From: Candidatus Woesearchaeota archaeon
GTDB taxonomy: Archaea > Nanobdellota > Nanobdellia > Woesearchaeales > UBA12501
DNA length: 64,000 bases
Assembly (NCBI GenBank): GCA_030651375.1
Contig: JAUSFM010000009.1
Location: 1-64,000, forward strand
Direction of reading: 5' to 3'
Shown one piece after another: positions 28,476 to 62,880 of this stretch (positions within the stretch are counted from its first letter, which is position 1; every line of letters begins with the position of its first letter). The position numbers and the translations under genes were made by a program. The notes beneath the pieces are model-generated. The model was not told the DNA's origin. It was given only the letters and a program-made list of their open reading frames with translations, and searched no databases.

Positions 28476-28591
28476 CGCCGGGGCTGGGATTTTCACCCAG
28501 AGGGTTTTTGACCCAACGGAGTTTGAACCCAGAAGTCCTTGCGGACGCGTAGGTTTCAACTACGTGCTCTACCTAGTTGAGCGACCCCGGC
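28476..28591 (-). tRNA. Class II tRNA, GAA anticodon, T-loop intron
   Basis: Acceptor GCCGGGG/CCCCGGC, U8, D-arm GCTC-AACTAGGTA-GAGC (A14, G18, G19, A21), anticodon arm CGTAG-TTGAAAC-CTACG (anticodon GAA), long variable arm GTCC-GCAA-GGAC, T-stem CTGGG/CCCAG. The T-loop TTCAAA|T is interrupted by a 32-nt intron (28490-28521). UUCA/UGAA form the 4-bp centre of a bulge-helix-bulge motif flanked by 3-nt bulges AAC and AAU, and the intron holds a GGGT-CAAAA-ACCC hairpin. The discriminator is G73 and CCA is not encoded. Long variable arms belong to Leu/Ser tRNAs, yet GAA is the Phe anticodon, so identity is unclear. Confidence 0.8.
28490..28521 (-). other. T-loop (59/60) BHB intron of the tRNA at 28476
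   Basis: 32 nt predicted to be removed by the archaeal splicing endonuclease. Central helix UUCA/UGAA, bulges AAC and AAU, internal hairpin GGGT-CAAAA-ACCC. Excision restores a perfect UUCAAAU T-loop and G53-C61 closing pair. Confidence 0.75.
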
Positions 28592-28633
28592 ATACGAAAA
28601 GTATTTATATCTGCAATGGTATATCCTCCATTT

Positions 28634-28712
28634 AGGTTTCAACTACGTGCTCTTTGAGCGACCAATTTCAGTTTTCAGTCACTTGCACCAGTTGGTGCAT
28701 CGCCGTTTTTTT
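28634..28712 (+). ncRNA. Candidate RNA antisense to the adjacent tRNA 5' half (tandem unit)
   Basis: A TTTATAT box at 28604-28610 predicts a start at 28634, exactly where a sequence begins that is the complement of the tRNA at 28476 from its anticodon loop back to position 7-8. It matches 30 nt apart from a 6-nt gap in the D-loop (AGGTTTCAACTACGTGCTCT then TTGAGCGACC). A second unit follows (AGTTTTCAGTCACTTGCACC...), antisense to a tRNA half with loop CTGAAAA not present in this window, then a GCACCA-GT-TGGTGC hairpin, ATCGCCG and seven Ts as terminator. Transcription is predicted, not shown. Confidence 0.5.
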
Positions 28713-28734
28713 CTTTTTTTATCAAATGAATAAG

Positions 28735-28858
28735 CGCCGGGGCTGGGATTTTCACCCTGATGCATTAAACCGTTATGCACCACGCTTTGAACCCAGATAG
28801 CCCGTGTAGGGCACCTCAGGTTTCAACTGAGTGCAATACCGGATTATGCGACCCCGGC
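28735..28858 (-). tRNA. Class II tRNA, GAA anticodon, T-loop intron (second)
   Basis: Same acceptor (GCCGGGG/CCCCGGC), U8, G18-G19 in the D-loop, anticodon arm CTCAG-TTGAAAC-CTGAG (GAA), variable arm GCCC-TACA-CGGGC, T-stem CTGGG/CCCAG. The T-loop is split by a 37-nt intron (28749-28785) at the same 59/60 position, again with UUCA/UGAA between 3-nt bulges and an inner UGCAU/AUGCA stem. Discriminator G73, no encoded CCA. It differs from its neighbour mainly in the D, anticodon-stem and variable arms while keeping the odd anticodon loop, so it is not a simple recent tandem copy. Confidence 0.8.
28749..28785 (-). other. T-loop (59/60) BHB intron of the tRNA at 28735
   Basis: 37 nt between TTCAAA and T of the T-loop. 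The intron differs in sequence and length from that of the neighbouring tRNA but keeps the UGAA that pairs with exon UUCA, as a BHB site requires. Confidence 0.7.
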
Positions 28859-28903
28859 ATGATGAACGAAAATTTTATATAGTTGGTTCATTTTTGAGTT
28901 TAT

Positions 28904-28943
28904 AGGTTTCAACTGAGTGCATACTGGTTATGCGACTTTTTTT
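28904..28943 (+). ncRNA. Candidate short antisense RNA to the second tRNA
   Basis: TTTATATA at 28874-28881 predicts a start at 28904. The RNA would begin AGGTTTCAACTGAGTGCA, as the 28634 unit begins AGGTTTCAAC, and is complementary to the D/anticodon half of the tRNA at 28735 with two single-base gaps and one substitution. A GCATA-CTGGT-TATGC hairpin, GAC and seven Ts form the end. About 40 nt long. Confidence 0.5.
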
Positions 28944-28961: not shown

Positions 28962-29116
28962 CTAAGATACTCTTCTTAATATGCGTTGCTCCTCAAAATC
29001 CGGAAGATTTCCGGCGGCGCCGGAACGTATGCGGCACTGCCGAAATAGTTCCGAAACAAAGCAAGAAATCCGAAAAGATTCCGGTTGCGCCGGAACAGCA
29101 TTTTTTTGTCGTCTAC
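28962..29116 (+). repeat. TTCCGG-rich dispersed element, copy B
   Basis: Begins CTAAGATACTCTTCTTAATATGC right after the terminator of the antisense unit. Contains CCGGAA-GAT-TTCCGG and further TCCG/TTCCG units and ends near TTTTTTTGTCGTC. A frame from the ATG at 28981 (MRCSSKSGRFPAAPERMRHC...) aligns without gaps over 45 codons with copies A and C (shared K6, G8, F10, P14, E15, R18, R21, S24, R31, S34, G38, R44). The frame here runs on into the 3' end of the next gene, which makes a protein product less certain. Confidence 0.75.
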
Positions 29117-62478: not shown

Positions 62479-62594
62479 CGCTGGCGCTGGGAAATTCACC
62501 CAAAGAGTTTTGGCTCAAACAGGATTTGAACCCAGATATCCTTTCGGAAAGGAGTGTCTGAAACTCCTCCTCAACCAGGTTGAGGATCGCCAGC
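62479..62594 (-). tRNA. Class II tRNA-Leu-like (CAG) with T-loop intron
   Basis: Acceptor GCTGGCG/CGCCAGC, D-arm CCTC-AACCTGGTT-GAGG, anticodon arm GGAGT-TTCAGAC-ACTCC (CAG), variable arm TTCC-GAAA-GGAT, T-stem CTGGG/CCCAG. A 32-nt intron (62493-62524) interrupts the T-loop at 59/60 with UUCA/UGAA central helix and bulges AAU and UUU; it contains GAG-CCAAAA-CUC. Discriminator G73, whereas archaeal tRNA-Leu normally has A73. Position 8 is A rather than U and position 21 is T, so it may be imperfect. Confidence 0.75.
62493..62524 (-). other. T-loop (59/60) BHB intron of the tRNA at 62479
   Basis: 32 nt bounded by bulges AAU and UUU around a UUCA/UGAA helix; removal gives a UUCAAAU T-loop. Same position as in the two tRNAs at 28.5-28.9 kb. 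Confidence 0.7.
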
Positions 62595-62643
62595 GTGAGT
62601 GTGAACAAATAAGTTTTTATAGTTGATCTGCCTTCTGAGGGTC

Positions 62644-62685
62644 AGTGTCTGAAACTCTTGCACAATTTGTGCATCGCCATTTTTT
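62644..62685 (+). ncRNA. Candidate antisense RNA to the CAG tRNA
   Basis: TTTTATAG at 62615-62622 predicts a start about 62644. The RNA begins AGTGTCTGAAACTC, exactly complementary to the anticodon arm of the tRNA at 62479 (14 nt), then a GCACAA-T-TTGTGC hairpin takes the place of the D-arm, then ATCGCCA complementary to tRNA positions 3-9, then six Ts. It would bind the tRNA 5' half on both sides of the D-arm. Confidence 0.5.
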
Positions 62686-62700
62686 CTTTTTTTAATTCTA

Positions 62701-62880
62701 TAAGATACTCTTCTTAATATGCTTTGCTGGAGAAAATTCGGAAACTTTCCGGCGAATCCGGAAAATATACGGCACCGCCGGAACAGTTCCGGAAAAACGC
62801 GAGAAATCCGGAAGCCTTCCGCTGGCACCGGAAGAGAAAAAATATATCGTCGACAAAAAATAAAAAGAATATTCGGATAA
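62701..62880 (+). repeat. TTCCGG-rich dispersed element, copy C
   Basis: Starts TAAGATACTCTTCTTAATATGC, identical over 21 nt to copy B, and follows the antisense unit's terminator just as copy B does. Contains TCGGAA-ACT-TTCCGG (G-U closed), CCGGAA-CAG-TTCCGG and TCCGGAA...TTCCG. A 53-codon frame (62719-62880, MLCWRKFGNFPANPENIRHR...) aligns gap-free with copies A and B. Confidence 0.75.

Follow-up and report, generated by a model that had tools for sequence, protein, structure and literature searches.

Why does an archaeal genome carry, beside tRNA genes of an unusual kind, short antisense copies of those same tRNAs? The question is raised by a stretch of 64,000 nt (positions 1 to 64,000 of contig JAUSFM010000009.1, assembly GCA_030651375.1; here called the window) from a Candidatus Woesearchaeota genome of 1.30 Mb in 23 contigs that is 100% complete. 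The window holds three modules in which an odd, serine-type tRNA is accompanied by a putative antisense RNA gene on the opposite strand, two at 28476-28943 and the third at 62479-62722. A first-pass annotation had suggested that a tRNA and its own antisense RNA could form a regulatory pair or an RNA-only toxin-antitoxin-like module. Comparison of related loci strongly supports the pairing of each tRNA with its own antisense RNA, and the module is probably of the toxin-antitoxin-like kind: a mistranslating tRNA toxin, placing serine at hydrophobic codons, restrained by a cognate antisense RNA. Neither ARAGORN nor Rfam at gathering threshold reported a tRNA in the window, because the odd tRNAs carry introns in the T loop.

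All three tRNA genes lie on the minus strand. tRNA 1 (28476..28591; covariance model score 112.1 bits, cloverleaf covariation) and tRNA 2 (28735..28858; 104.3 bits) are serine-type class II pre-tRNAs with anticodon GAA and G73, and the nearest normal tRNA in the genome is a tRNA-Ser for the former and tRNA-Ser(TGA) for the latter. tRNA 3 (62479..62594; 114.6 bits) is a serine-type pre-tRNA with G73 and anticodon CAG, matching the Leu codon CUG. In each of them a bulge-helix-bulge (BHB) intron is predicted in the T loop, of 32 nt in tRNA 1 (28490..28521, at position 59/60), 37 nt in tRNA 2 (28749..28785) and 32 nt in tRNA 3 (62493..62524). The hBHBh' motif reads CTGGG-TTCA-AA^C ... TGAA-AA^T-CCCAG in tRNA 1 and is the same in the other two. 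In tRNAs 1 and 2 it is canonical, with the T stem CTGGG/CCCAG, the 4-bp helix TTCA/TGAA and two 3-nt bulges. A cut as in other archaeal BHB motifs is predicted to restore TTCAAATCCCAG in tRNA 1, an ordinary T arm, and likewise the T arm of tRNAs 2 and 3; tRNAs 1 and 2 then become normal cloverleaves with the Phe anticodon GAA. Further support for this structure is provided by 17 relatives, in which 93.9% of the cells of cloverleaf plus BHB helix were paired, 17 pairs had changed on both sides and the covariation score was 0.436, compared to 0.143 after shuffling. The BHB helix itself occurs with the compensatory pair TTCG/CGAA. Covariation also supports a 7-bp acceptor and a 5-bp T stem, and U33 is retained in most odd tRNAs. 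Normal tRNA-Asp(GTC) and tRNA-Lys(TTT) of the same genome (G000 C16:67701-68003; L106) have apparent T-loop introns too, indicating that such splicing is usual in the lineage. An apparent acceptor-stem intron (GGGAA | TGAGAAAACAATTGTTTTTTTGCCATTAA | CATAGC) is visible in normal tRNA-Phe(GAA) (G000 C15:118380-118478; L152, L238), with a divergent LAGLIDADG-like gene close by, and an odd tRNA with anticodon CAG in another genome (G006; L016 around 1490-1620) has an extra long hairpin inserted in its T-loop intron.

To which amino acid do these tRNAs belong? The odd tRNAs have a long variable arm, and their D arms are near or identical to those of the normal tRNA-Ser of the genome. When the anticodon loop was masked, tRNA-Ser was the closest normal tRNA for 12 of the 13 odd tRNAs in this genome, and in the exception Ser came second by one point. 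A covariance model used to find further odd tRNAs across Woesearchaeota gave 107 distinct hits, 86 of which have a non-Ser anticodon, that is none of the archaeal tRNA-Ser anticodons GGA, TGA, CGA and GCT. G73 is present in 84 of these 86. Their anticodons are strongly biased: A35, which reads the hydrophobic NUN codons, is found in 83 (GAA 29, GAG 15, CAG 13, GAT 11, AAG 8, GAC 3, CAA 2, AAC 1 and TAG 1), leaving GTC (2) and GCC (1). The seeds of the model were mostly A35 tRNAs, which may slightly favour A35, although 18 plain Ser-anticodon tRNAs were still recovered. Normal tRNAs for Ser, Leu (Leu-CAG among them), Ile and Val are encoded separately in the genome. Seryl-tRNA synthetase does not read the anticodon. 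The odd tRNAs should therefore be charged with serine and bring it to codons of Phe, Leu, Ile and Val. In yeast, Ser tRNAs engineered to carry a foreign anticodon mistranslate and are toxic (PMC6827378), and allo-tRNAs that insert Ser under a foreign anticodon are functional in E. coli (PMC7609411).

The putative antisense genes follow a common plan on the strand opposite to the tRNA, generally on its upstream side and within ~100 nt of it: a purine-rich B recognition element (BRE), a TATA box, a body of ~40 nt complementary to tRNA nt ~6-42, sometimes a hairpin, and a T-run. All three units of the window lie on the plus strand. Unit 1 (28632..28719) has its TATA box at 28604..28611 (TTTATATC, with the BRE CGAAAAG just upstream) and is complementary to nt 6-42 of tRNA 1 with one 6-nt gap, followed by a hairpin at 28684-28699 (TGCACCA/TGGTGCA) and a T-run at 28706-28719. 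Unit 2 (28902..28943; TATA box TTTATATA at 28874..28881, BRE CGAAAA just upstream) is complementary to nt 7-41 of tRNA 2 with two 1-nt gaps and ends in a T-run at 28937-28943. Unit 3 (62643..62693, TATA at 62615-62622) combines an anti-anticodon segment with its own hairpin (TGCACAATTTGTGCA) and a T-run. The elements reported in the first-pass annotation are thus confirmed. The match to the D/anticodon half of the tRNA is present in both units for which it had been claimed, and the TATA box indeed precedes AGGTTTCAAC by exactly 30 nt (28604 to 28634 and 28874 to 28904). A T-run closes each of the two, with a hairpin before it in unit 1.

The same arrangement was found in 50 modules (distinct loci) from 21 genomes, picked by complementarity to the tRNA, and the proposal that independent loci keep the spacing and the terminator-like end is borne out by them. 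A TATA box resembling TTTATATA matched at 6 or more of 8 positions in 49 of the 50, its centre lay 25-33 nt ahead of the complement of tRNA nt 37 in nearly all, the A+T content at positions -32 to -27 was 94-100%, and a T-run of at least 5 followed the unit in 47. The match between copy and tRNA is uneven. Identity was 100% at nt 33-37, including the anticodon, in all 50 pairs; it was 42-74% across the D loop and below 50% beyond nt 40. Since anticodon identity is kept while the D loop drifts, and since tRNA and copy covary across species over many different anticodons, as the first-pass annotation had asked to be examined, a tRNA with its own antisense RNA is the best reading of these sequences. 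Duplex energies agree with this: cognate pairs averaged -53.5 kcal/mol and non-cognate pairs -27.3 kcal/mol, and the cognate duplex ranked first of 50 in 48 cases.

Because the 50 pairs had been picked by similarity, the test was repeated on 43 units picked solely by a reverse TATA box and T-run, with complementarity unused. The complement of nt 33-37 of the own tRNA was present in 40 of the 43, compared to a mean of 1.62 and a maximum of 5 in 500 control draws; the pattern is not due to chance. In two of the three failing units (L216, L219) the match to the own tRNA falls in its D arm and variable arm. The pairing rule also holds for L245, L247 and L251 (anticodons GAA, CAG and GAT), three modules from other genomes that were discovered afterwards. 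Among the 21 tRNAs set aside as Ser, 18 lacked an antisense unit by a loose TATA/T-run motif, and none reached a match of the level seen in odd tRNAs that have a unit (class I). A C box (RUGAUGA) is absent from all 50 units, and an identity as C/D box guide RNAs was rejected on this ground.

How would the tRNAs themselves be transcribed? Normal tRNAs of the genome have a TATA box ~30 nt upstream. The TATA box proximal to the odd tRNA points toward the antisense RNA, and its distance from the tRNA is too short for transcription of the latter; the tRNA promoter probably lies farther upstream, beyond the antisense unit. The units had been called divergent, which holds for the strand and not for the promoters: the two would face each other, and the tRNA leader would include a sense copy that matches the antisense RNA perfectly. 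A candidate is the core P1 (GCATATTAAGAAGAGTATCTTA; 28963..28984, minus strand), the probable promoter of a tRNA2-tRNA1 transcript, of which the genome has 7 copies when up to 3 mismatches are allowed, 6 of them at odd-tRNA loci. Tandem tRNAs such as this pair look like one transcript. Upstream of P1 lies an array of TTCCGG/CCGGAA inverted repeats (28990..29110, minus strand), and module 3 has the same order with P1 at 62701..62722 (minus strand) and an array at 62735-62840; both arrays are probable operators, that is binding sites of a regulator, judging from their enrichment upstream of odd tRNAs and not of true Ser tRNAs. A second promoter type consists of ACTGGACA boxes. In module a13 these boxes, GCGTGAG and TATATAAA immediately adjoin the tRNA and the antisense copy is found on its downstream side, so that the antisense unit would be separable. 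In all genomes together, a ACTGGACA box or at least three TTCCG/CGGAA sites occurred upstream of 33 of 48 class I modules, and of none of 20 true Ser tRNAs.

The ACTGGACA promoter is also shared with protein genes. Twelve exact copies are present in this genome, one of them before an odd tRNA. Others precede two genes for TumE toxins, both with a winged-helix-like partner gene behind them (in one case confirmed as HVO_A0114), an MjaI restriction enzyme gene, three Bro-N-like genes regarded as defence candidates (one Bro-N by Pfam, another the PADLOC candidate PDC-S13), a LAGLIDADG-like gene (named by eye) and a gene adjoined downstream by a DUF2283 protein. A promoter common to an odd tRNA and to toxin and restriction genes points to shared regulation in at least this genome. 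The regulon-like set with ACTGGACA boxes and a GCGTGAGGTATATAAACC promoter (L231-L242; G000 C3:199492, C4:40845, C6:315, C9:86915, C11:94652, C14:100980, C15:118304, C15:178964, C16:166828, C17:3876, C17:6423) also includes small proteins without assigned function, and two members carry TTCCGG sites as well. A leaderless mini-ORF considered for ATGTCCAGTG in relatives was dropped, as the other strand reads as the ACTGGACA promoter boxes shared with protein genes.

In the mechanism that we favour, the toxin-like partner would be a stable serine-type tRNA whose T-loop BHB intron is spliced and whose anticodon has been switched to a NUN codon. Charged with serine, it would replace Phe, Leu, Ile or Val by Ser. 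The antidote would be a short RNA, TATA-driven and T-run-terminated, read off the opposite strand, which may block decoding or maturation by pairing specifically with its own tRNA, over the D arm and the anticodon loop. If infection, stress or deletion of the locus halted antisense synthesis, the tRNA, as the longer-lived partner, would remain and mistranslate. Sequence comparison establishes the cloverleaf with its BHB intron, the Ser-type body, the bias to non-Ser anticodons, the anatomy of the antisense gene and the locus-specific complementarity; from them we infer transcription, serylation, toxicity, the difference in stability and the biological trigger. The toxin-antitoxin-like function put forward by the first-pass annotation is thus the best-supported reading, on circumstantial grounds: Ser-type bodies at hydrophobic codons and operators shared with toxin and restriction genes. 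Several observations weigh against it. G73 is missing from 2 of the 86 odd tRNAs, and about 36 of the 86 (~40%) are without a detectable antisense unit. At L216, L219 and L071:3364 the complementarity of the unit lies in the variable arm and not in the anticodon, and the unit of odd tRNA a8 (this genome, contig C14) mismatches the anticodon of its neighbour. The conflict role relies on shared promoters, and shared operators are guilt by association.

Other functions would fit part of these data. The tRNAs may serve a deliberate diversification of the proteome in times of stress, as in CUG-clade yeasts, the antisense RNA setting the dose with neither addiction nor killing. Several chromosomal copies for different codons, operator-controlled promoters and operon-like tandem tRNAs are in line with such an adaptive mistranslation, yet serine at Phe, Leu, Ile and Val codons is near the most damaging choice possible, the promoter boxes are common to toxin and restriction genes, and the copies are patchy among close relatives (4 of 10 family genomes in a DNA search); we regard it as rather unlikely. 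A role outside translation, be it as decoy for a viral or competitor anticodon nuclease, as regulator or as scaffold, with the antisense RNA controlling the level, is quite unlikely. The odd tRNAs are intron-bearing and divergent, and attempts to charge some bacterial allo-tRNA-like genes in E. coli failed (PMC7609411); against this stand the full cloverleaf with compensatory changes, the T arm left intact by the predicted splicing, the conserved G73 and variable arm, U33 in most, and the A35 bias, which is a decoding property. Reversed roles, in which the antisense RNA is a toxin that sequesters normal Phe, Leu, Ile or Val tRNAs and the odd tRNA a decoy antidote, have a precedent of tRNA sequestration in CreT (PMC8501985) and would agree with complementarity to an anticodon loop. 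However, the complementarity continues into the anticodon stem and D arm of the odd tRNA, and odd tRNAs occur without antisense RNA. Duplexes with the normal tRNAs tested were clearly weaker in all 11 pairs of this genome (-19 to -41 vs -35 to -64 kcal/mol), energies that disfavour normal tRNAs as the target, and we consider the reversal very unlikely.

The antisense unit might also be no gene of its own. A truncated copy of the tRNA, read in sense orientation within the leader of the pre-tRNA, could affect folding or processing with no separate antisense transcript, and the probable promoter P1/P2 upstream of the copy would place it in the leader. This is highly improbable given a reverse BRE/TATA at fixed distance in 50 loci together with T-runs, a copy in module a13 that lies downstream of the tRNA and so outside any leader, and the exact preservation of the anticodon in a copy from which the acceptor is absent and the 3' anticodon strand largely missing. 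Functionless decay of partial tRNA duplications, which the first-pass annotation had itself set against its proposal, would explain why the copies are partial and imperfect. It is virtually untenable: the match profile is highest at the anticodon and falls away sharply in the D loop, the pattern recurs across 21 genomes with many anticodons and with TATA box and terminator retained, and it was rejected on this profile, the conserved TATA/T-run geometry and the 40 of 43 units found independently of complementarity.

Several known systems come close to these modules. Type I toxin-antitoxin pairs (hok/Sok-like) combine a stable target RNA with a short antisense RNA that has its own promoter. The predicted antisense RNA is likewise short and driven by its own promoter, whereas the target is a tRNA in place of a toxin mRNA and no peptide is needed. 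The tRNA-Ser(CAG) of CUG-clade yeasts is also a serine tRNA that reads a leucine codon, but it recodes the whole genome; the odd tRNAs are extra, many and antisense-paired, and stand beside normal Leu-CAG, Ile and Val tRNAs. With type VIII systems such as CreTA, in which CreT acts on decoding by sequestering a tRNA (PMC8501985) and the antitoxin is a CRISPR-like RNA guiding Cascade, they would share two RNA partners encoded side by side, here predicted from a tRNA gene and a promoter- and T-run-bearing unit within ~100 nt of each other, an inhibitory RNA partner and a link to decoding through a tRNA. The own, specific complementarity that marks a type VIII pair is found between the candidate antitoxin RNA and its tRNA. 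In contrast to CreTA, the toxin-like partner is a tRNA gene with a foreign anticodon, and the antidote should pair directly with the tRNA, looks like an independent TATA/T-run gene and resembles a tRNA half rather than a guide of the CRISPR-like kind. The Ser-accepting type with non-Ser anticodons is also seen in bacterial allo-tRNAs (Mukai et al. 2017; PMC7609411), for some of which a link to toxin-antitoxin or mobile elements was suspected. They differ by a 12-bp acceptor branch of 8/4 or 9/3, compared to the normal 7/5 of the odd tRNAs, and have diverse anticodons and no mention of an antisense partner, while the odd tRNAs have T-loop BHB introns, the A35 bias and cognate antisense genes. 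No prior description of Woesearchaeota tRNA-Ser oddities, chimeric DPANN tRNAs or tRNA/antisense pairs was found in the open-licence PMC literature.

How far does the element reach? The expectation that related genomes have tRNAs with a partial antisense copy is answered by the 50 modules. Of the 242 genomes of the order, 56 gave model hits at E ≤ 1e-13; normal Ser tRNAs are among these hits. In a phylum-wide sample the hits fell almost only within the same order, with few in other families of the class; one of the latter, checked individually (G308; L249), proved to be a true Ser tRNA. A viral contig collection contained no exact match to the intron-T-arm pattern, and a viral home is unsupported at that sensitivity. 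Odd tRNAs exist in two forms, class I with an antisense unit, as in the window, and class II without. The latter would need another control, perhaps via the promoter. Class II tRNAs (L075, L090, L098, L069, L160-L171 and similar) stand directly behind a promoter with an A-rich start region, and several have a perfect or near-perfect hairpin abutting the 5' end of the tRNA. Beside a8 (G000 C14 161545-161820; L013, L015), an antisense unit with BRE/TATA and T-run has a tRNA reduced to a remnant and resembles an orphan antidote. Partial tRNA-Ser copies beside intact genes (L028, L030, L105, L011, L007) resemble attachment-site scars of integrated elements.

Taken as a whole, we lean, by a modest degree, towards a new class of RNA-only conflict system. 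Natural serine tRNAs redirected to hydrophobic codons would be toxins that poison the proteome, and every one of them would be neutralised by an RNA directed against its anticodon. Across Woesearchaeota the modules would differ in the anticodon used, and for this genome at least they would have operators in common with toxin-antitoxin and restriction genes. T-loop introns let the modules escape routine annotation. If the reading is true, the tRNA itself would be a toxin that breaks the genetic code on demand, with an RNA of ~40 nt as antidote, and the modules would add a new design to those of toxin-antitoxin or abortive-infection systems. Genetic-code engineering could then draw on them as a natural source of sense-codon missense suppressors, and their presence would help to explain how predictions of tRNA counts and of codon reassignments for DPANN genomes can mislead.
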